From: a virus
Strand: one strand, 5' to 3'
Virus record (IMG/VR): IMGVR_UViG_3300037264_008072
Span: 1 to 22,575 of that record
Length of the DNA stretch: 22,575 nt
How positions within the stretch are numbered: position 1 is the first letter of the stretch; every line of letters starts with the position of its first letter. Made by a program: the position numbers and the translations under genes. This document shows positions 611-19,953 of the stretch, in pieces. The notes under the pieces were generated by a model that did no database searches, had not been told where the DNA came from, and worked only from the letters and a program-made list of their open reading frames with translations.

Positions 611-2767
611 TTATACCTGATCCAAATCAGCCACCAGAATCTTACCATAAAATTCCGGACGGACAATCTTCTTGGCATAGCGTGTCATTACACCCCGGCG
701 CGGCGTGAAATTAACAGGGTCATACACCAATGGTGTTTGAACCAATGGAACATACGGAGCATAAACCGCTCCTGTTTCCAGGAAGTTATTGCCTCTGAAT
801 CCCATCAGAATCACATTATCCGTCATGTACGGGTTCTTATAGACCTGGAAGCGCTGTGCGAATGTGCCGACCCTTGTTACACCCATCGCAAACTTCGCTT
901 GGTCGCCATCCGTATTAACGGTAAACCCAGGAATGGATTCCAAAATTGTTGCTACATCCGGCGAACACACCATGAAATTAGCACCACCCCGGAGAGTCAA
1001 TTGGTGAATCTTGTTCGACACCTTTTGACATTTGATGCCCAGAGTTCGGTACCAGGTTGATTTCTCATAGTAACCGCCTGTGCCCGCTACCGTTTGATCT
1101 TGATATGTCCAACCACTTGCTCCATCCGGAATTATCTCACGATTAAGTTTAGCACTCCAACGTTCGGTAGTAACGGCAGGAACATTAACAATCAGCATGT
1201 CCAGAATTTCAAGATCAATCTCCATCGAAACATACTCACTCAATAGAGAAGTAAGTTCAGCTTCGGCATCAATACTGTGATAAGCATTCAAGTCTTGGGC
1301 GAGTTCGGGAGTCCAAACTGCCTTCAGCTTACGGGTTTTGGCTACAATCGGTTCACTCTTGAGTTCCAAATTGACCTCAGGAATACCAATGTCCTTGTTC
1401 AGACCAGTATCAGTGGTTGAGGCTCCCGGAAGATTAAACTTGCCGGTATCGCCTGAATTATCCGCGTCTTCAAAGTCGCCACGGTTGCTATCCTTCGGCT
1501 GAACACTGTAATTGATAGTGGCCATACTAACATGAGTTGCATCATAATAACCCTCACCACCGTAATACCAACCTGTAAAGTCCACCGATGTCAAGATAAC
1601 GGATGAAGCGCTGATGTGACCCAAGAAATTGGTGATACTGCTAGAAAGAGCTACTTGACCAACGACTACACCAGCAATGGAAGTACTGCCGGTAATACCG
1701 GTATTATATCTTATCGCATTGGCTTGACCATTGATAGAACCGCTGAAATACGAAGCGGTAAACACTCCAATACCAGTACCTTGAAAACTACCACTAAGAT
1801 AAATTCCACTATTAAGAAAACCGAGGCCGTTACTGCTCGACGCTACGGATCCTGAAAAACTGGTAAGAGTGCCGCTGCCTGTTACTTCTGTATAGACGGC
1901 AAGAGGAAGCACAGCATTACTAGCCGTGACATACTGACTGGTTACTCCAGTTAAAGAAGCGGATACAATAAATACCACTTCGTTTCCGGATAGTTTTGTT
2001 AGAGCGGGGAAATAAGCTTCATATAACGATCCAGAAGACGGGACGAATGAACGAATGGCTGTAGTATCAAAAACATTACCTTGTGCTGCAGCAACCGTTG
2101 CAAAATTTGTCGTGGTAATTTTGATAATTTCACTATTGACTACAGATCGACTGATGGAAGCCAACACCGTTTCTGTTGAACCTGATTTTGCGGCTTGAAT
2201 ATCCCAGTTGTAGTTCCAATTCAGATCATCCAACATTGTTGCAAGGACCACTGAGGAAGTAACATTACAATTACAAACCTTATCATTTATGGAATAAGCA
2301 AATCTTCCTGCGCCATACAAACCACCAACTGCGGAGTCAGTCGAACCGGTTTTTGTACCAGTACCGCCAAACAGGGAATCATATACCGTAGCACTATCTT
2401 TAACAATTGCACCTTGATTGGTGCCATATTTGAAATCCAAATAAAATATCAGACCGGAAGGCAAATTCATTGGTTGAACCGACACAAATTCCTTGGCCGC
2501 AAATTCGGCAAAAACACGGCGAACCAACGGAAGGGCAACGCCGGCCCATTGTTCAGAATTGGCCGAAGTGCCGGTGGAAGTTGATTCTTCGATCAGCTGC
2601 TTGGCTTGATTCTCAAGGAGAATAGACATGTTGCTTCTGTCGATGTCGTTAGTCAAACCCTCAAGCAGACCTGTCTTGTCCCACTTGTCGCGGAGATTGC
2701 GTGTTTCTTGCATTAACCGCACCTGGGGGTTAAGAGCGCTGGTGAGAAGTTCTTTGACGTTGTTCAT
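611..2767 (-). CDS. Major capsid protein, gp23-like, copy 1 (with long insertion)
   Basis: This 718-aa protein forms the capsid lattice. The region around residues 450-530 (ELKSEPIVAKTRKLKAVWTP, AQDLNAYHSIDAEAELTSLL) is typical of T4-type gp23. The N-terminus (MNNVKELLTSAL) is a likely propeptide. Prohead protease sites of the (L/I)xE type occur at LIE (58-60) and IEE (59-61), close to the cleavage position in T4 gp23. The protein is collinear with copy 2 (2875-4668). The last ~160 residues are identical except at the penultimate position, while residues ~165-270 diverge. Residues ~271-415 are a Ser/Gly/Thr-rich insertion absent from copy 2. No Shine-Dalgarno precedes the ATG. It has its own promoter-like box and terminator. 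It could be the vertex (gp24-like) or a minor lattice protein; which paralogue dominates cannot be read from sequence. Confidence 0.95.
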   Translation of the reverse strand: MNNVKELLTSALNPQVRLMQETRNLRDKWDKTGLLEGLTNDIDRSNMSILLENQAKQLIEESTSTGTSANSEQWAGVALPLVRRVFAEFAAKEFVSVQPMNLPSGLIFYLDFKYGTNQGAIVKDSATVYDSLFGGTGTKTGSTDSAVGGLYGAGRFAYSINDKVCNCNVTSSVVLATMLDDLNWNYNWDIQAAKSGSTETVLASISRSVVNSEIIKITTTNFATVAAAQGNVFDTTAIRSFVPSSGSLYEAYFPALTKLSGNEVVFIVSASLTGVTSQYVTASNAVLPLAVYTEVTGSGTLTSFSGSVASSSNGLGFLNSGIYLSGSFQGTGIGVFTASYFSGSINGQANAIRYNTGITGSTSIAGVVVGQVALSSSITNFLGHISASSVILTSVDFTGWYYGGEGYYDATHVSMATINYSVQPKDSNRGDFEDADNSGDTGKFNLPGASTTDTGLNKDIGIPEVNLELKSEPIVAKTRKLKAVWTPELAQDLNAYHSIDAEAELTSLLSEYVSMEIDLEILDMLIVNVPAVTTERWSAKLNREIIPDGASGWTYQDQTVAGTGGYYEKSTWYRTLGIKCQKVSNKIHQLTLRGGANFMVCSPDVATILESIPGFTVNTDGDQAKFAMGVTRVGTFAQRFQVYKNPYMTDNVILMGFRGNNFLETGAVYAPYVPLVQTPLVYDPVNFTPRRGVMTRYAKKIVRPEFYGKILVADLDQV

Positions 2768-2789
2768 AATATTCGATAGTGTGTCGTTT

Positions 2790-2797
2790 AATAAATA
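2790..2797 (-). promoter_or_regulatory. Late-promoter-like box, TATTTATT (7 of 8)
   Basis: The minus strand reads TGATATTTATTAAAC, 22 nt ahead of the MCP copy 1 ATG at 2767. It matches the shared TATTTATA box at seven of eight positions and lies between the terminator of copy 2 and the start of copy 1, so copy 1 can be transcribed on its own. Confidence 0.45.
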
Positions 2798-2826
2798 TCA
2801 TCCAGTTTTGTAAATATACAAAAAAA

Positions 2827-2853
2827 GAACCCCGCTCCGAAGAGCGGGGTTTT
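2827..2853 (-). terminator. UUCG-loop intrinsic terminator after MCP copy 2
   Basis: On the minus strand a 10-bp stem AACCCCGCTC / GAGCGGGGTT with a TTCG loop is followed by C and seven T residues, about 23 nt past the stop at 2875. It is nearly identical to the hairpin at 568-594; only one base pair of the stem differs. Confidence 0.9.
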
Positions 2854-2874
2854 GAATTTTTTACTCAGTCAAGC

Positions 2875-4668
2875 TTATACTGTATCCAAATCTGCGACAA
2901 GAATCTTGCCGTAGAATTCTGGCCGAACAATCTTCTTCGCGTAACGGGTCATTACACCGCGTCTTGGCGTGAAGTTGACTGGATCGTAGACCAGAGGAGT
3001 CTGCACCAGCGGGACATACGGAGCGTATACCGCGCCAGTTTCCAGGAAGTTATTTCCACGGAAGCCCATCAGGATGACGTTATCGGTCATATATGGGTTC
3101 TTGTAGACCTGGAAGCGTTGAGCAAATGTACCCACTCGGGTTACGCCCATTGCGAACTTGGCTTGATCACCATCGGTGTTCACCGTGAATCCAGGGATGG
3201 ACTCAAGGATAGTCGCTACATCAGGAGAGCAAACCATGAAGTTTGCACCACCACGCAGCGTCAGCTGATGGATCTTGTTGGAGACCTTTTGGCACTTGAT
3301 ACCGAGTGTTCGATACCAGGTTGACTTTTCGTAGTAACCACCCGTACCTGCGACAGTTTGGTCAACTGCAACATAAGAACCATTGGTGGCTCCAGGAATG
3401 ATTTCTCGATTGAGCTTAGCACTCCATCGTTCAGTTGTTACTGCGGGAGCATTAACAATTAACATATCCAGGATTTCGAGGTCGATTTCCATAGACACAT
3501 ATTCCGACAACAGAGCCGTCAACTCGGCCTCAGCGTCAATGCTGTGATAAGCATTGAGGTCCTGAGCGAGTTCAGGCGTCCAGACGGCCTTCAGCTTACG
3601 GGTCTTAGCCACGATTGGCTCAGACTTCAACTCAAGGTTGACTTCTGGAATACCGATGTCCTTGTTAAGACCGGTGTCCGATGTGGAAGCACCTGGAAGA
3701 TTTACTTTGCCAGTATCATTAGCATTAGTTGCATCTTCGAAGTCGCCACGATTGCTATCCTTTGGTTGGACGCTGTAGTGAACCGTGAGACCGTTAGTGC
3801 CGGGGGCACCTAACCAGGCCCAAGCAGTAGGTTCAGCTTCAACAATGAATTGAACTTCGTTGGTTGTCGTCAACTTCGTCAAGGCTGGGAAGTATCTCAG
3901 AATTCCACTTGCGCCACCGAGCACGGATGCCGTCACTGGAACAAACGAACGTACTGCACTTGCATCAAATACACTACCTGAGAGCGCGGAGGCCGCCAAG
4001 AAGTTAGTTGTTGTAAGTTTGAAGAGTCGTCCGGCGACTACCGAAGCACTAAGGGATGACGAAATAACGCTGCCTGAGCCATAGGCTGCAGCATCGACAT
4101 TCCAATTTATATTCCAGTTTAGATCTTCAAGCGTAGTTGCTGATACGGATGCCGAAGCATAATTCACCGCGATGGTTTTGTCATTGATGGTGTAAGCGAA
4201 GCGCCCAGCGCCATACAGACCGCCAACTGCTTTGTCGGTTGAACCGGATTTTGCACCAGTACCGCCGAACAGTGAGCTGTAAACGGAGTTTGTTCCGTCT
4301 TTACCGATTGCACCTTGGGTTGTGCCATACTTGAAGTCCAAGTAGAACACCAGACCAGAAGGGAGGTTCATAGGCTGAACGGAGACGAACTCCTTCGCGG
4401 CGAATTCAGCAAACACACGACGGACCAGTGGCAGTGCCACGCCGGCCCATTGTTCTGAGTTTGCAGAAGTACCTGTCGAAGTAGCTTCTTCGATCAGCTG
4501 TTTGGCTTGATTCTCAAGGAGAATGGCCATATTGCTCTTTTCAGTATCATTCTCAAGCCCTTCGAGCAGACCAGTTTTGTCCCACTTGTCTCGCAAGTTA
4601 CGGGTTTCCTGCATCAGTCTTACTTGAGGATTAAGAGCGCTTGTCAAAAGTTCTCTGACATTATTCAT
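2875..4668 (-). CDS. Major capsid protein, gp23-like, copy 2
   Basis: This 597-aa gp23-type capsid subunit starts MNNVRELLTSALNPQVRLMQ and, like copy 1, has candidate prohead protease sites LIE/IEE at residues 58-61. The conserved core (PEVNLELKSEPIVAKTRKLK, ~330-350) and the C-terminal domain match the T4-like family. It lacks the ~145-aa insertion of copy 1. In the corresponding place it has a short loop (AWAWLGAPGTNGL, ~283-295). It lies 24 nt after the scaffold gene, with AAGAGAAA before the ATG, so scaffold and MCP are probably one transcript, as gp22-gp23 are in T4. Its usual size, good ribosome site and position after the scaffold make it the better candidate for the main capsid subunit; this is an inference. 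Confidence 0.95.
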   Translation of the reverse strand: MNNVRELLTSALNPQVRLMQETRNLRDKWDKTGLLEGLENDTEKSNMAILLENQAKQLIEEATSTGTSANSEQWAGVALPLVRRVFAEFAAKEFVSVQPMNLPSGLVFYLDFKYGTTQGAIGKDGTNSVYSSLFGGTGAKSGSTDKAVGGLYGAGRFAYTINDKTIAVNYASASVSATTLEDLNWNINWNVDAAAYGSGSVISSSLSASVVAGRLFKLTTTNFLAASALSGSVFDASAVRSFVPVTASVLGGASGILRYFPALTKLTTTNEVQFIVEAEPTAWAWLGAPGTNGLTVHYSVQPKDSNRGDFEDATNANDTGKVNLPGASTSDTGLNKDIGIPEVNLELKSEPIVAKTRKLKAVWTPELAQDLNAYHSIDAEAELTALLSEYVSMEIDLEILDMLIVNAPAVTTERWSAKLNREIIPGATNGSYVAVDQTVAGTGGYYEKSTWYRTLGIKCQKVSNKIHQLTLRGGANFMVCSPDVATILESIPGFTVNTDGDQAKFAMGVTRVGTFAQRFQVYKNPYMTDNVILMGFRGNNFLETGAVYAPYVPLVQTPLVYDPVNFTPRRGVMTRYAKKIVRPEFYGKILVADLDTV

Positions 4669-4692: not shown

Positions 4693-6192
4693 TTACTTTT
4701 TCACCTTGATACCAGCTAATTTCTGGAATCGAGCGGCGAAATCCTTACCAGCAGAAACGATATCTGCGGCAGGTTTGGTTGATGCGACCGGCTTGCTTGC
4801 GTAGGATTCGGTGATGCGGCTTGGACCAGCAGTTTTAACTGTCGATTTCTTACCAGCACCGAAATTCAGAGCTTCACACATACCAGCGAAGGTCAGCTTT
4901 ACTTCACGAACATTCTTCAACAGATCGAATGTCTCAACCACACGCATCTTCTGCTTGTTGTCAAGATTGAATTCCTTGAACAGCTTTGTCGTGTAAAGCA
5001 GTTTGGCATTCAACAGATTAACTTCGTTAATCTGGCCTTGGAGATACTTGATAGCACTGACATGCTCATTGAGCGCGTCCTTGAGATCAGAATTCTCTGT
5101 CTTGAGATCTGTATTTTCTTTATCCAAAGCGGCAGCTTCGGCAACGGGCTTACCACCTGTTACTCCAGTACCAATATTTCCCTTACCTTGGACATTGTGA
5201 TTCTTTCCTTTGACTTGATTCTTGCTTCCATCCTGAGGCGCCTTTGGATAACCGCAGGTACCGCCGGATTTATCTTGACCACCAACATTCGTTGGCACGC
5301 CTTGATTAGCAATTTCGTCGACTTTTTCTTTTTCGTCGTCTTCGTCTTCGTCTTCCTTTTCACCCTTTTCGCCCTTCTTCTTGAGCCAAGGTGGAAGTTT
5401 CCCTTCGGATACTTCGCCTTCCTCTTCAGTCAGAGCTTCGAGCAGTGCGTTAAGGTCGATTTCTTCTTCGACGTCGTCTTCGCCAGGAACCTCTGGAGCT
5501 ACAGGAGCTACACCAGCTTCGCCTTCAGGGGCAACTGGCGCAGGTGGGGCTACAGGAGCACCAAGTGCGGCAGGGTCACCTTCCGGTGCGCATGGCGCGG
5601 CAGGAGCAGCAACATCGCCTTCAGGGGCAACTGGCGCAGGTGGGGCTACAGGAGCACCAAGTGCGGCAGGGTCACCTTCTGGAGCTACAGGCGCGGTAGG
5701 ATCTTCCAATCCCTTTTCGCCATCAGCTTCAGCAGCAACTTCTGCTTCAAGTTCTCTGATGATTTCGTCTAGGTCTTCCGATGTGACGCCGGATTCTTCC
5801 TCAAGACCAACCTCTGCGGTTTCTTCGATACCTTGTGATGCGGCAGGGGCTTTAGAGCCAGCGGCTCCGCCCTTACCACCAACGGCAACTGTTTTAAAAT
5901 TGCTAGCGGCATCTGAAACTTTTTTAGGTTGACCCTTGGAAACATCTTTGGTAGCTGGGCCTTTGGCCTCACCACCCTTACCTGATACCTGGTTAGGAGC
6001 ACTAACTTCGGCAACTGGCAATTCGGCACCAACGGCATCTTCACCCGCTTCTTCTTTCAATTTATCCGCAAACATTGCGTGAAAGCGTGGGGCGAAGGAT
6101 TCTTCAAGGACATGCTTTGCGTTGGCAATCGCGGTCGCGCGTACCGCCTTGGCATCGGCAATGGCCTCTTTGAGTAATTCGCTGTTGATCAT
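4693..6192 (-). CDS. Prohead core scaffolding protein (gp22-like)
   Basis: This 499-aa, strongly acidic, low-complexity protein most likely forms the internal core around which the capsid assembles, and is later degraded by the prohead protease. An amphipathic N-terminus (SELLKEAIADAK) is followed by Gly/Ala/Lys-rich linker. Next come Pro/Ala repeats at ~165-235 (APVAPEGDPAALG twice), a Glu-rich stretch ~236-262, and an Asp/Glu/Lys tract ~273-292. A predicted coiled coil follows at ~352-392 (ALDKENTDLKTENSDLKDAL). The conserved block is at ~388-437 (INEVNLLNAKLLYTTKLFKE, then QKMRVVETFDLLKNVREVKL), a pattern I associate with scaffold proteins of T4-like phages. It sits directly before MCP copy 2, as gp22 precedes gp23. 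AAGAGAAA lies before the ATG. The long leader (about 85 nt) holds two inverted repeats. Confidence 0.85.
   Translation of the reverse strand: MINSELLKEAIADAKAVRATAIANAKHVLEESFAPRFHAMFADKLKEEAGEDAVGAELPVAEVSAPNQVSGKGGEAKGPATKDVSKGQPKKVSDAASNFKTVAVGGKGGAAGSKAPAASQGIEETAEVGLEEESGVTSEDLDEIIRELEAEVAAEADGEKGLEDPTAPVAPEGDPAALGAPVAPPAPVAPEGDVAAPAAPCAPEGDPAALGAPVAPPAPVAPEGEAGVAPVAPEVPGEDDVEEEIDLNALLEALTEEEGEVSEGKLPPWLKKKGEKGEKEDEDEDDEKEKVDEIANQGVPTNVGGQDKSGGTCGYPKAPQDGSKNQVKGKNHNVQGKGNIGTGVTGGKPVAEAAALDKENTDLKTENSDLKDALNEHVSAIKYLQGQINEVNLLNAKLLYTTKLFKEFNLDNKQKMRVVETFDLLKNVREVKLTFAGMCEALNFGAGKKSTVKTAGPSRITESYASKPVASTKPAADIVSAGKDFAARFQKLAGIKVKK
5519..5679 (-). repeat. 65-bp perfect direct repeat within the scaffold gene
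   Basis: Positions 5519-5583 and 5615-5679 are identical over 65 bp, with an offset of 96 bp (32 codons, in frame). They encode the duplicated Pro/Ala segment containing GDPAALGAPVAPPAPVAPEG. Perfect identity at the DNA level points to a recent in-frame tandem duplication with a diverged spacer, or to gene conversion. Confidence 0.95.
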
Positions 6193-6284: not shown

Positions 6285-6292
6285 TATAAATA
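6285..6292 (-). promoter_or_regulatory. Late-promoter-like box TATTTATA before scaffold
   Basis: The minus strand reads TGATATTTATAATC, an exact copy of the shared box, 92 nt ahead of the scaffold start. It is one of two boxes in the divergent 6193-6367 spacer; the other (6346-6353) faces the opposite way toward the plus-strand genes. Confidence 0.5.
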
Positions 6293-6345
6293 TCATTGTA
6301 TTCCTGAAAACATAAAAAAAGTTTTCTTCATATCATTTGTGGTTC

Positions 6346-7072: not shown

Positions 7073-7356
7073 TAAGCCTTAAAGAAATTTTACATACGGC
7101 GAAAGACGAAAATAAAAGCGGGCTAGTTCCCTATGAAGAATGGACTATTGCGGAAACTGATCATCTATCCGACATGGGATTCAAACCCAATGGAACTTAT
7201 TGTATGGGACTTGAAAATCCTCCGATGGTGGTATTCCGTAAGAAAGAAGGCTTTCAGCTAAAAGACGGTAAAAAGAAACAAAACTTTAAGTTCCAATCCT
7301 TCGATCAGCTAGTTGAGTATTTCGACAATTATCAACAGGATTTGAAAAACAAGTGA
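7069..7356 (+). CDS. Uncharacterised 95-aa protein
   Basis: A small soluble protein starting MISLKEILHTAKDENKSG. It overlaps the preceding gene by 4 nt (ATGA), with GAGGAAA about 8 nt upstream of the ATG, which supports the start. It has no signal peptide or membrane segment. A Lys/Phe-rich stretch (LKDGKKKQNFKFQSFDQLVE) leads into a helical C-terminus. I recognise no family. It is probably co-expressed with the DUF3008-like gene. Confidence 0.75.
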   Translation: MISLKEILHTAKDENKSGLVPYEEWTIAETDHLSDMGFKPNGTYCMGLENPPMVVFRKKEGFQLKDGKKKQNFKFQSFDQLVEYFDNYQQDLKNK

Positions 7357-7364
7357 TATTTATA
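7357..7364 (+). promoter_or_regulatory. Late-promoter-like box TATTTATA, plus strand
   Basis: It abuts the TGA of the preceding gene and lies 8 nt before the ATG at 7373; the plus strand reads GATATTTATAGAGCAC. It is an exact copy of the shared box. A start site 6-7 nt downstream would leave almost no leader for the next gene. Confidence 0.5.
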
Positions 7365-9480: not shown

Positions 9481-9619
9481 AATCTACATCACAATCTCTC
9501 AAAATAAAATCAGTTAAACTAAACTCATTGAGTTTGTATTTCTTAATAGCTTCCTTCGTCAACACAGGATAAAGAATCAAATCTCCAACCGGATATGGTA
9601 ATTGTAATTGTTCGTTCAT
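9464..9619 (-). CDS. Small 51-aa protein coupled to GMP reductase
   Basis: A short frame MNEQLQLPYPVGDLILYPVL...DVDYEKGR fills the gap between GMP reductase and the DUF5662-like gene. Its ATG overlaps the GMP reductase stop as ATGA, the arrangement used by other genes of this operon, and its end overlaps the next start by 17 nt. It has no membrane segment or motif I recognise. Without it the spacer would be the only long gap in this otherwise compact operon, which supports it being real. Confidence 0.6.
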   Translation of the reverse strand: MNEQLQLPYPVGDLILYPVLTKEAIKKYKLNEFSLTDFILRDCDVDYEKGR

Positions 9620-10575
9620 AAACAATAATGCCATCCTATATTTTTGAAAGAAGACAAATCCTTTCCACCCGCATAGGAAATACTGCTACGTAGGGCCTGT
9701 TGAATTTTCTCCATGCGTTTTTCATAAGTGATATCTCCTTCCAGTTCGATGGTCTTGCCTTCGACATGGTTATCATGACCCTTAGCCGCATAGGATGTTG
9801 AACCTCTATAAATCTTTTTGCCATGGACTATTTGGGCGGGGGAATCGATACAAGAGGCAAATAACCCACCACACATAATCATATCCGCTCCCAAGGCAAT
9901 TGCCTTGGCAATGTCTCCATGATGCTTGATTCCGCCATCAGCAATGATGGGTTTTTTCTTACCATACTGACACTCCAATAATGAAGTAGCGGTCGGTAAA
10001 TGAAATCCTGTTTCAAAGCGGGTAGTACAAATCGAACCGCCACCGATACCTATCTTTACCGCATCCACTCCCAAGTCACACAAAAATTCATAACCGTCTT
10101 GAGTAGCAACATTTCCTGCAATAATAGCCGGTCTTCTATTGGCATCCTCCTCAAATTGTTTCCAAATAAAAGACATCATATCTTCAACATTCTGATGGTG
10201 GCCATGCGCAACATCAATGGTAAGATAATCCAGGACATCCCCGAATCGGGTAAGAATATCACCCAGTTCTTTTTTGGAATCTTCTCCCACTCCGATGCTT
10301 ATACTAATATAGGGAAGGTTCTCTGCAATGGAAAATTCTACAAACTTGGAGGGAGCACCCTTGAATCGGTGCATGATATAAAAATAACCATTTTTAGCCA
10401 ACCACTCTGCGTTTTGAAAACCAATAACGTCTTCCATATTAGCAGGTATTACAGGTAGATTAAATTTTCTTCCAAGAAAATCAACTGAAGTATCGGCGTC
10501 CGCGCGGTGAAGCAAAGAGGAAAAGCGCGGGCGCAAATAGATATTATCGTAAGAGGGAGAGAAATCTTCTATCAT
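9616..10575 (-). CDS. guaC: GMP reductase (IMPDH/GMPR family)
   Basis: A 319-aa TIM-barrel enzyme predicted to convert GMP to IMP and ammonia with NADPH. It lacks the CBS domains of IMP dehydrogenase and is close in length and sequence to the short bacterial GuaC type. Visible blocks: LPVIPANMEDVI (~40), NGYFYIMHRF (~62), DVAHGHHQNV (~121), IIAGNVAT (~151), GIGGGSICTTRFETGF (~176-191, catalytic Cys183 with Thr185), PIIADGGIKHHGDIAKAIAL (~209), GSTSYAAKGHDNHVEGK (~258), SSISYAGGKDL (~297). These match GMPR better than IMPDH, though the two are close relatives. It heads a small accessory operon and has a sigma70-like promoter instead of the TATTTATA box. No Shine-Dalgarno is seen. In a phage it could shift guanine nucleotides toward adenine, helping an AT-rich genome. 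Confidence 0.9.
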   Translation of the reverse strand: MIEDFSPSYDNIYLRPRFSSLLHRADADTSVDFLGRKFNLPVIPANMEDVIGFQNAEWLAKNGYFYIMHRFKGAPSKFVEFSIAENLPYISISIGVGEDSKKELGDILTRFGDVLDYLTIDVAHGHHQNVEDMMSFIWKQFEEDANRRPAIIAGNVATQDGYEFLCDLGVDAVKIGIGGGSICTTRFETGFHLPTATSLLECQYGKKKPIIADGGIKHHGDIAKAIALGADMIMCGGLFASCIDSPAQIVHGKKIYRGSTSYAAKGHDNHVEGKTIELEGDITYEKRMEKIQQALRSSISYAGGKDLSSFKNIGWHYCL

Positions 10576-11886: not shown

Positions 11887-13560
11887 TCAAAGTGTCATTT
11901 CATACCGAAAACTGCCACAATCCCATATTCGGTCCCAGCCATGGTTTTGCATATTCCGCCACTCCGTAAATACCGGATTGTAGTTATCAAGTCGTTTAAC
12001 CAAGGTATGTTTAGCATATCCGAAGCGGTGATGGCGTTTATATGAATTTCCCCGGCCGAAATACCAGTAATTTGGAGTCCCGTCGTTTATCTTTTTAAAG
12101 CCAAGTTTCTCATACAAATTACCCATACTCCAACGCCGGTCTGCATAACTGACTATTTTAGACGGGTTGTATTGCTTTATGAAATGAGAAAGTAACTTGC
12201 TAGCTCCGCCTATAATTGATTTGGCCGAAGCGAAGCGATACAATTCAAACATTTTGTTTGTTTTTTTAGACCCCAACGCGGTTCTCAAAATTCCAAAAGT
12301 CATTACCCCCACCAATTGTTCTTCTTCAAACAATCCCAGGCGTATGGAACTCTTGTCTTTACCTTGAATGTGATATTGTTCAAGAAATGTATTGCATTGA
12401 ATTGCCTCAACTTCTTTCACGGTACATTTTCTCGCGGCTAATCTATCTTCTGATTTTTTAAATAAATTAGTCAATTTAGATTTGACTATACCCTTCTTCG
12501 ACAACCACTCATCCTCAAAGATATGAATTAGCCGGATGCCTTGTTTTTCACATGAAATAGTTTTGTCCAGATGATAATTTTTATTCTTGTTTCCGCCTAT
12601 TTCTCCATGCCAATATAGTCCATCACATTCGATGGCTATTTTTTTGGTCGGGAGGTAAATATCAATTTCCTGATTGGTATTCAAAAGCGTCTTGTCATTC
12701 TCTAAAATTATATCAGAGGATTCCAATAAACCCTTAACAAATTCCAAAACTTCTGTTTCAAAAAATGACCGACCTTTAAAACATTTTGGACATCGTGGCA
12801 AATCACCATCCTCTAAACAATCTAAAAATTCTGTATGGCATTTATTGCAACTAAATTTATATTTTTCATACAATCCATGAGCCAGATATTCCTCACTGGA
12901 AAATAATGGGGTGGCTAATTCCTGTAAACGATTGGTCGTCGTCAATGAATCAAAAAATAACCTCCGGCGGGTTTGGATAGTCTGTTGCCTAATTTCAGGC
13001 CATTGTTGAACATTTTTAACTCCATATTTTTTGAATATCGCCTTTTCCTTCTTTTTTTGGTCCGACAATATCCATTTTACTCCAAAATTTTTCTTATTGG
13101 AATCGGATATTCGTTTTAGAATTTCCGAAGATTTGGTGGGATTATCAACCCCATAGTTTTTCAAGAGTGTCTGTTTTCTTTTACCAATGACAACCTTGTT
13201 ACTGAGTCCATATTCTGAACCATATCGTTTTAGATTGGTGGTTTTTATTTTTTGGGATGTGATGGGATCTAATTGCGCACACCGATTACAACATGCTTTT
13301 AGATACCCCCTAGTCAAGGTTAAAAACTTTGGGGATTTATCACATAATGGATTGGAACACTTAACCGGTTGATAACGGTCGTGCATTATGTGCCATATAC
13401 GTTGGGGAAACGTGGGATTTGTCAAAAAAGAAGTTTGACCGATTATGATCTGGTACCTTTCAATAAACTGGCTGAGATTGCGACCAAACCACTCTTCTTT
13501 ACATCGTTTAGCAACCAATTTTCCGTCTATCATCAGATTTTCTTTTATCCAAGTTTTCAT
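11887..13560 (-). CDS. Free-standing homing endonuclease (EDxHD/Vsr-like, modular)
   Basis: 557 aa, mobile. The N-terminal part holds a Cys cluster (C68, C73, C90, C91, C94). Four copies follow of a short DNA-binding-type repeat, roughly LKRYGxxxxxxN, LLKNYGVDN, KKNFGVKW, FKKYGVKN (~110-183). A zinc ribbon comes next (C238-x2-C241 ... C257-x2-C260). The nuclease core at ~295-352 (NQEIDIYLPTKKIAIECDGL, then YWHGE, CEKQGIRLIHIFEDEW) matches the PD-(D/E)xK/EDxHD Vsr-like fold seen in phage homing enzymes such as I-Bth0305I. A C-terminal domain (VSYADRRWSMGNLYEKLGFK, PNYWYFGRG) recurs in such phage proteins. It stands between the protease gene and a late-box gene. AAAGG precedes the ATG. It acts on DNA and probably spreads its own gene into phages that lack it. 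Confidence 0.85.
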   Translation of the reverse strand: MKTWIKENLMIDGKLVAKRCKEEWFGRNLSQFIERYQIIIGQTSFLTNPTFPQRIWHIMHDRYQPVKCSNPLCDKSPKFLTLTRGYLKACCNRCAQLDPITSQKIKTTNLKRYGSEYGLSNKVVIGKRKQTLLKNYGVDNPTKSSEILKRISDSNKKNFGVKWILSDQKKKEKAIFKKYGVKNVQQWPEIRQQTIQTRRRLFFDSLTTTNRLQELATPLFSSEEYLAHGLYEKYKFSCNKCHTEFLDCLEDGDLPRCPKCFKGRSFFETEVLEFVKGLLESSDIILENDKTLLNTNQEIDIYLPTKKIAIECDGLYWHGEIGGNKNKNYHLDKTISCEKQGIRLIHIFEDEWLSKKGIVKSKLTNLFKKSEDRLAARKCTVKEVEAIQCNTFLEQYHIQGKDKSSIRLGLFEEEQLVGVMTFGILRTALGSKKTNKMFELYRFASAKSIIGGASKLLSHFIKQYNPSKIVSYADRRWSMGNLYEKLGFKKINDGTPNYWYFGRGNSYKRHHRFGYAKHTLVKRLDNYNPVFTEWRNMQNHGWDRIWDCGSFRYEMTL

Positions 13561-13634: not shown

Positions 13635-14252
13635 TTAAATTTCGGAAAGAATATCCCGAATAATATTTTCCGTTGATTCCCAATGATTGGTTATTGGATT
13701 GCGAATTACGCCTTCTTTAAGAGGACTTGCAGCGAACATAAATGCCCCTCTTGTTGAAGGATTTGAAACAAAATCAAACGCGATTAACTCAAAGTCATCC
13801 TGAACCACATCCACTTCTTCACGAATGTCTTTCTTGACGGTGCCCATGCCCCGACTGGAAATACCCAGGCGAATGTTTGACTTGAACAGTTCCTTGAGAA
13901 TATTACCATTGGGCGTGGGGAGAATTTCAATGGTCCCGATCAAATCGTCGCCATCCCAATGCATTTCAATGACATTATGGGACACATTCTGTAGGTTAAC
14001 CACGGAACTTTCCGGGTGATCTAATTCACCAAGAGCCCGACGTTCCCGGACAAAATCGCTTTCATATTTTGCCGCTTCACGGATCAAAGTTTCCTTTTTG
14101 TAAAGGCGACCATTTTGATTCTTGATGTTAGCTCGCTGCAAACATCCTTTCACGATGAAAGGACCCGTTCCGGACAAAGCTTCCGTGAGAATGTCGCGTG
14201 GACATTCGAATGTCATACATTCTACTAACAGTGGTTTTTGTGTATCACTCAT
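13635..14252 (-). CDS. Prohead core protease (gp21-like)
   Basis: A 205-aa serine protease of the T4 gp21/herpesvirus assemblin type, which matures the prohead by cutting scaffold and capsid N-termini after (L/I)xE motifs. Visible family marks: GRLYKKETL (~48), LGELDHPESS with catalytic-type His79, IRLGISSRGMG with Ser132/Ser133 as nucleophile candidates, and the closing block ELIAFDFVSNPSTRGAFMF (~155-173). Length fits gp21. It starts 3 nt after the previous gene, with GTAGGA upstream. In T4 the scaffold and capsid genes follow directly; here they are separated from the protease by a homing endonuclease and about 7 kb of other genes. Confidence 0.92.
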   Translation of the reverse strand: MSDTQKPLLVECMTFECPRDILTEALSGTGPFIVKGCLQRANIKNQNGRLYKKETLIREAAKYESDFVRERRALGELDHPESSVVNLQNVSHNVIEMHWDGDDLIGTIEILPTPNGNILKELFKSNIRLGISSRGMGTVKKDIREEVDVVQDDFELIAFDFVSNPSTRGAFMFAASPLKEGVIRNPITNHWESTENIIRDILSEI

Positions 14253-16792: not shown

Positions 16793-16800
16793 TATAAATA
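16793..16800 (-). promoter_or_regulatory. Late-promoter-like box TATTTATA
   Basis: The minus strand reads CCCATATTTATAAATC, an exact copy of the shared box, 24 nt before the ATG at 16768 and about 34 nt past the portal stop. It decides the start of the downstream gene, since a start at 16813 would lie upstream of the promoter. Confidence 0.55.
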
Positions 16801-16833
16801 TGGGGTATTCCATTGAAAATCATACTTTTGTAT

Positions 16834-19800
16834 TTATGAATCAATGATGTTATCCTCATTTAGAAAAGTATCTGATTCCTCAATAACTTCTGGAATTACC
16901 TCTGTCTTAGAAGTATTTTCAGTGAGAATTTCTTTTGGAGAAGCATCCATAAATGCGCGCATTGAAGTTATTACTGAATCCCGTAAGGTTTTTTGGGCTT
17001 GAATTTGTACTCGGTTTTTCTTATTCTCACTGATCGAACCGACATCAAACGGACTTCCGCTCTTCCATTTGTGTATCAAGTCACTACCTTTTCTGGGCTG
17101 TTCGTTGTTTTCTTTATCCCCCAAAGGATCTTCTCCAAATGGATATTTTGTCGCATCCTTATCGCCTTCCTGAGAAGGTCTTACATAATCATCGGCATGT
17201 TCACCATGAACTTCTTTGAGCGCAGCAGCTAAATCAGCTTCAGGTGAACCACCGCCAGCACCCGGCTCGCCTCCCAGTTCTCCACCAGGACCTCCGCCCG
17301 GACCCCCCTCCAAATCTCCCAAATCAGGACCTCCACCGGGGCCGCCTTCGCCTCCACCTTCACCGCCCTGTTCTCCTGGAGGTTTGATTTTCTTGAATGG
17401 CTGAGCCGGATCGTTACCATCTTCTTCGATGCTCTTGTAACGATAAAGTTGTTTAGCATCCTCAATAATTTCTTTGTTGAGCAGTTCAATATCTTCTTCC
17501 GAAATATCAAACAGATGATTGTAAACCCAACGCTTGGAAAATAGTTTGTTCTCCATCATGTTTTTAGCCACATCCACTTTGTCTGTCCACAAGGCAACTT
17601 TTTCTTTTTCGAAGATAATGGATGGATTGGTCAATTCAATACTGAAATTGACCAGTTCTTCATCCCGATAACCCTGGGAATAAAGGTGAACTCGCGCGAT
17701 TTGACCCAATGCGGAAATCAGAAAGTTTTGAACACGCCCAATGGTTCGGGCAAACCGAACATCTTCTGCGGCCAAGGTGGCTTTGCCGGAAAGTTCTTCT
17801 TCATAACCCAAAAAGGCCTTGGGAATCTTCAGGCCCGCCATCAACTTATTGCGGAGATATTCAATATCGTCCGTTCCCGTCCATTCCATACCGGTAAGAT
17901 TTTCGATGGAATTACCGCTATCGCTGCCACGCACGGGCAGGAAAAAGTCTTCGACCATATTCTGTAAATTGAAACGGAGGTTATAATCACCGGTTCTTTG
18001 GTCAAGGTATGGAACTTTTTTCATCTTGGAGATGAGTTTTTCCATGTGTGAGTCAACTTCGTTGGGCGGAATATTACCGATATCAACTTTAAAAATGCGT
18101 TTTTCTGGAGCGCGCATGATACGATGAATCAACATAGCGTCTTCCATCAAACTCAATTGTTTCCAAATACGACGAGCCCCCTCCATCATACCTTTTCCGT
18201 ATGGCAAGAAATTGGAATCGGCAAGCAAACGGAAGTGGACCATTTCAAATTCTTCCAGGGTTTCGGCTTGCGATGTATCGGTGGGACGAATTTGAAACTT
18301 GACGTAGTTCTTATTGAGAGGATCAGAATTTTCAATGCGTTCCACATTGTAAGCAGAAATGGGTTCGGCAAAATAAACACCGTAAGTGGGAGAGATATAC
18401 AAACGAAGGAAAAAATCTCCGTATTTTGCCATGTTACGAGTCCACGACCAAAGGTTGAATCGAACATTGAGAATGTCGTAGAATAGATTGTAAAGAACAT
18501 CTTTGATGTTGTTGTCGTCAGAGTGGATAACTAGAATTTCACCCATTTCGTTAGGCGTTAAACACTCGTCCGAGTATATGTCGAGGGCACTGCTAATGAT
18601 AGGATCCATATCCATGGTATTTGACACGTAGCAATTGTCCGTGGCAAAGTTATGATATTTCTCCACCGTAACATCATACACCTCCAACGGACCAACATGT
18701 TCAATGGATACAATTTTGTGATTCAACTTAGAAATGGCTTCTTCTTTAAAATCACTCCATGAAATATTATTCGACTGCAATCTGTTTTGAAATGTTGAAT
18801 AATCGCATCCAACATAATTAATCAATTCCCACAAAGTTAATTTTTCATTTTCTTTGTAATAATCGGATGCTTTTACTTTCAACGCTTCTATGGTCAAATC
18901 GTCTCTAAACCTTGGATTTTTATCTCCACATTGATCTCGGTTTTTTAAAACTTCCTTCAATGTTTTGGATCGTTTTTCGTTAGATTCTTTTCTATGAATC
19001 TTACCATGAAACGGATTATTTTTTCCAACCCTCTTACCACCCCAAATATGAAATTTTCTATTTATGTAATTTTCATTTGTTAATAATTTTTTGAGTTGGT
19101 TTTCATAGTTATCAGGTCCCCACAAAACATTTTTACTATGATTGGAATGGTATTTGTAATGATCAATTTTAGTCATTACTTGTAAATTTTCGGGTAAATT
19201 ATCCAACCCCTTAAAATTTTTGTGGTGAACACACTCATTTTTATTTAACGGCCCATAAAATTGTTCAGCCACAATTCTATGTTCGGTTTGCCATCCTTTA
19301 GAAAAATTGTATAATTTTCTATACCTGCCTTTATTATAAGGCTTCTGATAAAATGGCATCACCGAATCTCCAATTTTAAGTTCCAGAATCTTCTTATATG
19401 TCCCGTCACGCATCAAAAATGGATGTTTGATACTTCCGATTACATACTGCCCATTATCAAATGTAACCTTAAATCCCTCCCTGGTTCCTCCGCCCTTTTT
19501 TCTTGGATGATATGCCTTACCCAATTTTATTGAGTCGGTTTCGTGATCATAAGAAAATACCCAAAATCGTTCTTGAGGCTTGTTTTTGTATTTTTCGGCA
19601 AGTTCTGCTATTGTTGGATTTGTTCCATCTGGTAATGGAATAACCGTATCCGGTCCAACACAATCATAATCCCGAAACAAATCAATCCGAGCGGCTTGAT
19701 AAGACAGGGCAAAATCCCTGGTGTAAGCATTGTAACCGGTGGACCGGACACGATTGAAACGGTCCCTTCCGGTATTCTGGGAAGTCGCAACCATGGTGTT

Positions 19801-19953
19801 ATCGGTGTCGATAACTTTAAGTTTCTTCCCTCCAATATTTCGGACAATGGTGCCTGAAGAGAATAATCTCTTCAAACGTGCGTAAAGTGACCTCTCTCTG
19901 ATATCAACTTCGTCGTTCTGAAACCGGTCGTTTTTTAGTTGTGATTGTGCCAT
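16834..19953 (-). CDS. Portal protein (gp20-like) interrupted in frame by an intein
   Basis: A 1039-aa precursor. Residues 1-97 and 446-1039 are the exteins, together a 691-aa portal, the ring at the unique vertex through which DNA is packaged and to which the tail binds. The family is shown by MDMDPIISSALDIYSDE right after the insertion, YGDFFLRLYISPTYGVYFAE, FEMVHFRLLADSNFLPYGKG, MRAPEKRIFKVDIGNIPP and LRNKLMAGLKIPKAFLGYEE, all typical of T4-type gp20. Residues 98-445 are the intein (separate entry). The tail contains a long Gly/Pro/Glu-rich linker (~885-940) and a charged end (EILTENTSK). Coding is open throughout, so function needs protein splicing. No Shine-Dalgarno precedes the ATG; the TATTTATA box lies 28 nt upstream. 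It follows TerL directly. Confidence 0.93.
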   Translation of the reverse strand: MAQSQLKNDRFQNDEVDIRERSLYARLKRLFSSGTIVRNIGGKKLKVIDTDNTMVATSQNTGRDRFNRVRSTGYNAYTRDFALSYQAARIDLFRDYDCVGPDTVIPLPDGTNPTIAELAEKYKNKPQERFWVFSYDHETDSIKLGKAYHPRKKGGGTREGFKVTFDNGQYVIGSIKHPFLMRDGTYKKILELKIGDSVMPFYQKPYNKGRYRKLYNFSKGWQTEHRIVAEQFYGPLNKNECVHHKNFKGLDNLPENLQVMTKIDHYKYHSNHSKNVLWGPDNYENQLKKLLTNENYINRKFHIWGGKRVGKNNPFHGKIHRKESNEKRSKTLKEVLKNRDQCGDKNPRFRDDLTIEALKVKASDYYKENEKLTLWELINYVGCDYSTFQNRLQSNNISWSDFKEEAISKLNHKIVSIEHVGPLEVYDVTVEKYHNFATDNCYVSNTMDMDPIISSALDIYSDECLTPNEMGEILVIHSDDNNIKDVLYNLFYDILNVRFNLWSWTRNMAKYGDFFLRLYISPTYGVYFAEPISAYNVERIENSDPLNKNYVKFQIRPTDTSQAETLEEFEMVHFRLLADSNFLPYGKGMMEGARRIWKQLSLMEDAMLIHRIMRAPEKRIFKVDIGNIPPNEVDSHMEKLISKMKKVPYLDQRTGDYNLRFNLQNMVEDFFLPVRGSDSGNSIENLTGMEWTGTDDIEYLRNKLMAGLKIPKAFLGYEEELSGKATLAAEDVRFARTIGRVQNFLISALGQIARVHLYSQGYRDEELVNFSIELTNPSIIFEKEKVALWTDKVDVAKNMMENKLFSKRWVYNHLFDISEEDIELLNKEIIEDAKQLYRYKSIEEDGNDPAQPFKKIKPPGEQGGEGGGEGGPGGGPDLGDLEGGPGGGPGGELGGEPGAGGGSPEADLAAALKEVHGEHADDYVRPSQEGDKDATKYPFGEDPLGDKENNEQPRKGSDLIHKWKSGSPFDVGSISENKKNRVQIQAQKTLRDSVITSMRAFMDASPKEILTENTSKTEVIPEVIEESDTFLNEDNIIDS
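18619..19662 (-). mobile_element. Intein in the portal gene with HNH homing endonuclease
   Basis: 348 aa, from C98 to N445 of the precursor. Block A is CVGPDTVIPLPDGT; block B is GSIKHPFL with S-x-x-H in place of T-x-x-H. Block F is VYDVTVEKYHNFATDNC and block G is CYVSN, followed by Thr as the +1 residue. The penultimate position is Ser where most inteins have His. Removing it joins RDYD to TMDMDPII, restoring a conserved portal stretch, which fixes both borders. The interior holds an HNH endonuclease (TEHRIVAEQFYG ... ECVHHKNFKGLDNLPENLQV, ~126-161), then a NUMOD3-like motif (NNPFHGKIHRKESNEKRSKT, ~215-234) and a helical DNA-binding-like stretch (LTLWELINYVGCDYSTFQNR). Its sequence is more AT-rich than the exteins. 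Confidence 0.93.

Follow-up and report, generated by a model that had tools for sequence, protein, structure and literature searches.

The window analysed here, a 22,575-bp viral metagenome contig (IMGVR_UViG_3300037264_008072), is a single fragment of an incomplete genome. It covers the head region of a T4-like phage and contains genes for the terminase large subunit, the portal and the prohead protease, a gene at the position of the scaffold gene, and two tandem capsid genes. Both capsid genes lie on the minus strand and were recognised as open reading frames matching the Gp23 family profile PF07068. Copy 1 (611–2767) encodes 718 amino acids (E = 8e-74), and copy 2 (2875–4668), directly after the scaffold-position gene, encodes 597 (E = 1e-75); copy 1 starts 107 nt beyond copy 2. 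The encoded proteins share a nearly invariant core, while the silent codons of their C-terminal block differ as much as would codons picked at random, and we propose tentatively that both proteins enter one shell.

Layout of the two capsid genes

The PF07068 matches score 249.7 and 255.8 bits for the two copies against a curated cut-off of 24.4 and span most of the profile. Comparison of the family profile with T4 proteins gave E = 5e-37 for gp23 and 4e-4 for gp24, which rules out copy 1 as a gp24 orthologue and identifies both copies, as judged from sequence, as gp23-type major capsid proteins. The predicted model of copy 2, whose overall confidence is low, aligns with residues 272–521 of T4 gp23 over 192 residues (Z = 11.4), and the match to the gp23 A/P core takes in residues 367–593 of the model, covering the C-terminal block described below. 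This fold search used the copy 2 model; the sequence of copy 1 is nearly identical in that part. Cleavage of N-terminal propeptides follows the protease-site rule (L/I)xE, and both copies have LIEE at about residue 61, where the positions of the L and the final E are invariant in 45 sequences. A predicted propeptide with a protease site is therefore present in both; the propeptide region differs between them at seven positions. The prohead protease (13635–14252, minus strand; Peptidase S77 of the T4 gp21 type, E = 1.3e-22) would be expected to process both proteins.

The copies differ mainly in a variable region at approximately residues 160–430, where identity is about 50–60% and copy 1 has ~122 residues more than copy 2. 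The insertion in this region is ~261 aa long in copy 1 (1483–2290, minus strand) and rich in Ser, Gly and Thr, compared with 138 aa in copy 2 and 96–152 aa in most relatives. Searched alone, the enlarged insertion gave no relative among viral contigs and no Pfam family. The copy 1 model is unreliable in this part (predicted local distance difference test, pLDDT, 30–40), and no fold is claimed for it. Other large insertions in the same variable region occur in a separate clade of 676–737-aa capsid proteins from related loci L090, L095, L105 and L106.

Each gene is followed by an intrinsic terminator on the minus strand, at 562–597 after copy 1 and at 2821–2856 after copy 2. The two are alike at 34 of 36 nt, and the two mismatched positions are partners in the stem, where a G-C pair in one corresponds to A-T in the other. 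Their 20-nt core was found in just three other loci, and the capsid-gene terminators of the nearest relatives are quite different. A promoter-like element, ATATTTAT (2791–2798, minus strand), is located past the terminator of copy 2 and ahead of the copy 1 start; it also occurs in the window at 518–525, 6286–6293, 7356–7363 and 16794–16801. Across 1441 gene starts in related loci, ATATTTAT precedes the start in sense orientation 285 times and in antisense orientation 56 times; it is about 40 times denser there than inside genes and lies mostly at −20 to −11. Its position and orientation mark it as a likely promoter of the phage, from which mRNAs with almost no leader would be made. The copy 1 element begins at −31. 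The leaders of 36 orthologue capsid genes all lack ATATTTAT, and every one of them is richer in purines than that of copy 1. With an element of its own past the copy 2 terminator and a leader unlike those of the orthologues, copy 1 looks separately transcribed.

Conserved proteins and randomised silent codons

The C-terminal block runs from QTVAGTGGYY to the last residue and comprises 161 codons plus the stop (611–1096 in copy 1 and 2875–3360 in copy 2, both minus strand). An earlier note on this DNA had reported that about 159 residues from this motif are identical while many third positions differ. Both statements hold: 160 of 161 residues are the same, 159 of them consecutively, the sole mismatch being the penultimate residue (Q/T), and the codons differ at 8 first, 1 second and 97 third positions. 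The proportion of synonymous differences (pS) is 0.87, beyond the reach of the Jukes-Cantor correction. When synonymous codons were permuted within each amino acid, 96.8 differing codons were expected in the block and 99 were observed, so the block retains no silent homology. Over all degenerate identical residues of both genes, 286 codons differ against 303.6 expected, and in total the genes are slightly more alike than random codons would make them. Exact matches between the copies reach at most 23 nt in 588 aligned codons, which is no shorter than the longest runs of permuted genes. Permutation and run lengths together rule out an active avoidance of homology, and the suggestion in the earlier note that codon divergence serves to keep the genes from recombining is not borne out.

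For the 392-codon core, a maximum-likelihood codon model gave a synonymous distance (dS) of 7.0, with values down to about 3 lying within a likelihood drop of 2 units; above about 3, dS is a statement of saturation and not a number. The nonsynonymous distance (dN) was 0.037 and their ratio (omega) about 0.005, compared with a lowest value of 0.017 among orthologue pairs more than 92% identical. These values suggest very strong purifying selection on the core, in line with the selection on both proteins already proposed. In the comparable core, identity between the copies is 94.4% and excess silent identity 3%, whereas 147 orthologue pairs at 93–96% core identity have a median excess of 44% and a minimum of 16%. 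The pair is thus an outlier in silent homology, though at the end of a continuum.

The silent change is concentrated in copy 1. Its maximum-likelihood dS to the nearest orthologues is 3.2–13, compared with 1.3–2.3 for copy 2, and dN is equal for the two at about 0.09–0.12. Unique silent changes number 97 in copy 1 against 52 in copy 2 with related locus L003 as outgroup, and 96 against 51 with L010; this excess is not seen with L014, L083 or L009. Amino-acid changes are about even between the copies with most outgroups. Similarly, copy 1 departs from the majority codon of the relatives at 88 of 178 sites and copy 2 at 54, while orthologues do so at 23–43%. Codons ending in C at F, Y, N, H, D and I make up 0.32 in copy 1, 0.56 in copy 2 and 0.335 in the rest of the window; in orthologue capsid genes, the fraction is 0.34–0.86 (median 0.62). 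Paired at identical residues, the C-ending codon is found 18 times in copy 1 against 47 times in copy 2 (p = 0.0004). The codon usage of copy 1 is that of ordinary window genes, and that of copy 2 is the usage of a capsid gene. The higher G/C of copy 2 noted earlier is weak within the block (third-position GC content, GC3, 0.565 vs 0.516, with 40 vs 32 discordant sites) but clearer over the whole gene (0.50 vs 0.41). On a plain reading of the codons, copy 1 would no longer be selected for fast translation, and drift would have changed its silent sites. The concentration of silent divergence in this copy means that the silent clock cannot date the origin of the pair, and dating by silent distance was rejected, the acceleration being confined to copy 1 and third positions being saturated.

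Related loci and the origin of the pair

A tandem capsid pair was found in none of the 204 related loci fetched, 159 of which have at least 2.3 kb downstream; a few contigs were taken twice, so the distinct number is somewhat lower. Nor was a second full-length Gp23 protein present in 13 long relative contigs. Among annotated phages, 2493 records gave 2495–2496 match places, so that at most two or three records have two, and a scan of genome contigs gave one relative, on a Flavobacteriales metagenome-assembled genome contig. Literature searches on phages turned up no direct precedent, either for major capsid paralogues in tandem or for silent divergence as a guard against recombination. The pair is therefore as unusual as had been supposed. 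Short extra Gp23-profile matches, one with stops, occur in jumbo relatives on the contigs behind L023 (G005:284836–285099) and L004 (G001:39964–40116); these are possible decayed or partial capsid paralogues.

The order scaffold, capsid, terminator is shared with capsid genes of the same clade (L083, L003, L004, L007 and L010) and of Flavobacterium phage immuto. Core identity to copy 2 is 85–88% in the nearest clade relatives and 51% in immuto. Unlike the window, the clade relatives have one capsid gene only, often followed by a GIY-YIG endonuclease gene, which lies within 400 nt after the capsid gene in 35 of the 110 relatives with at least 1 kb downstream, seven of the nearest included. This homing endonuclease stands past the capsid terminator, in either orientation, in L003, L004, L005, L007, L009, L010, L083 and 28 others. 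The window holds copy 1 in this slot.

In the protein tree the copies are sisters with support of 100/100, and the third-position tree places copy 1 with L014 instead of copy 2 (96/93). Because the proteins are sisters and the terminators nearly identical, the data point to one cassette whose duplication, or homogenisation, would be younger than the separation from the relatives sampled. The earlier claim that this is not a fresh duplication therefore stands in part. A low synonymous distance, which would have spoken for a recent event, was not found, and silent distance is saturated; however, the proteins are mutual closest relatives, the terminators nearly match and the divergence is one-sided.

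The scaffold-position gene (4693–6192, minus strand), named by its place, that of gp22, lies upstream of copy 2 as in relatives, and family searches with its product gave no match. Within it, two 95-nt direct repeats (5511–5701; 89% alike) encode EGDPAALGAPVAPPAPVAP repeats. Farther along the head region, an IMP dehydrogenase/GMP reductase family gene (9616–10575, minus strand; PF00478, E = 1e-52) lies among the head genes, and the prohead protease gene is adjoined by a gene (11887–13560, minus strand) for a 557-aa protein that matches homing endonuclease families and has a Mom-like C-terminal part. The portal (gp20) gene (16834–19953, minus strand) contains an intein with an HNH endonuclease at residues 105–440.

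A candidate mixed shell and its alternatives

We propose, giving it slightly less than an even chance, that the two gp23-type proteins co-assemble in one shell, with copy 2 as the bulk and copy 1 as a lower-expressed component with a larger surface insert. Copy 2 would share its transcript with the scaffold-position gene and, retaining the bias of a heavily translated capsid gene, would serve as the bulk subunit. Copy 1, past a terminator and with its own promoter-like element, would be made in smaller amount and would carry the larger variable insertion. In T4, the gp23 insertion domain forms bumps on the shell surface (PMC9958956), and by analogy the copy 1 insertion would lie at the outer surface. 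Shared capsomer contacts and processing by a common protease would hold the HK97-fold core of both copies to one amino-acid sequence. Freed from translation at top speed, copy 1 would have drifted at silent sites until too little identity was left for easy recombination between the copies. Such a loss of codon bias offers the simpler account of the silent divergence and predicts unequal expression; codon deoptimisation of the T7 capsid gene halved the capsid protein (PMC5592923). A shared lattice is plausible. We consider rather doubtful the fuller claim of a two-component lattice built from the phage's own capsid proteins, with an identical, interchangeable core, different outer domains and genes that are stable without silent homology.

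Several points weigh against this proposal. The pair is known here from the sequence of one contig, and the structure models are poor (pLDDT 52–57), so that the T4 I domain serves as the analogy by which the insertion is placed at the surface. At saturated dS, omega is unreliable. As a guide to expression, codon bias is indirect, and it is weak in both copies, with an effective number of codons of about 52 against an orthologue median of 37. Moreover, some orthologue pairs likewise combine high protein identity with near-saturated silent sites; L089 and L091 are also 97.5% identical in the C-terminal block with 4% excess silent identity.

The main rival holds that copy 1 was imported from a co-infecting relative into the post-capsid slot, and that the pair was not lost by recombination because the DNA was already divergent on arrival. 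The frequent occupation of this slot by the GIY-YIG endonuclease and the placement of copy 1 with L014 on third positions favour it, but the approximately unbiased (AU) test does not reject sisterhood of the copies on those positions (p = 0.29), and the sister proteins and the rare terminator core argue for a common cassette. In addition, a silent homology of 0.03 falls below that of all 147 orthologue pairs, the lowest of which is 0.16, so a ready-made donor would itself be unusual; we regard import as unlikely, if still a serious contender. That the contig instead joins the capsid genes of two related phages from one sample is very improbable in our estimation. The sequence is metagenomic, copy 1 ends just 610 nt from the contig end and the pair is absent from all other contigs examined; against this, the solo capsid gene of every relative seen comes after the scaffold gene, and one joined in from a second phage should do likewise, whereas copy 1 is preceded by a terminator and a promoter-like element. 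In addition, the only long string shared at the join is 20 nt, which is short for an assembly overlap.

Copy 1 might also be on its way to becoming a pentamer protein, as gp24 is in T4. T4 gp24 is thought to have derived from gp23 by duplication (PMC9958956, PMC3012670), the lack of a second full-length Gp23 protein in the long relative contigs means that the main protein probably forms the vertices there as well, and low expression would suit 55 copies per head. However, adaptation to pentamers works via capsomer contacts, and the T4 bypass mutations lie in the A domain (PMC9958956), whereas here the half that holds the A/P core differs at a single residue and the copies differ in insertion and propeptide. 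A fixed core with a free outer part suits a shared lattice better than a vertex specialist, and we judge this route improbable. Little credence, too, is given to selection against recombination as the driver, in which near-identical tandem genes would have been deleted and variants with dissimilar codons would have survived. The brevity of the longest exact run and the accelerated silent change of copy 1 without protein change agree with it, but the codons are random and not avoided, the runs are no shorter than in permuted genes, and the loss of codon bias accounts for the direction of change.

The contrast between 99% protein identity and random silent codons is a warning against dating phage paralogues by silent distance when the expression level of one copy has changed. 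If the co-assembly proposed here is true, the pair would be a test of how long two proteins are kept to the same sequence by co-assembly alone, and a two-component lattice would be nature's counterpart of the display capsids engineered with recoded duplicates of a gene.

Capsid paralogues of tailed phages are usually far diverged and have fixed places, as with gp23 and gp24. Like these T4 proteins, the window copies are HK97-fold paralogues of the Gp23 family, with a prohead protease and a portal encoded in the same window. Unlike gp23 and gp24, which are about 20% identical (PMC9958956), they are 94% identical in the core and 99.4% in the C-terminal block; both are gp23-like and neither gp24-like, and their genes are in tandem with near-identical terminators. 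A pair with an identical core and a free insertion would, if our proposal is true, catch an early mixed-lattice stage of the gp23/gp24 route. T7 makes a major and a lower-amount capsid version, gp10A and gp10B, that share an identical core and differ by an extra segment, from one gene via a frameshift. The proposed amounts in the window would be similar, a major and a lesser version with the same core and an extra segment; in contrast to T7, two genes with unrelated silent codons are used and the extra segment is internal. The parasitic island SaPIbov5 encodes Ccm, which is homologous to the capsid protein of phi12, co-assembles with it and, by occupying pentamers, changes capsid shape (PMC8569155). 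Copy 1 would likewise be a second capsid protein that co-assembles with the first, but it is encoded in the phage's own head operon and its core is unchanged.

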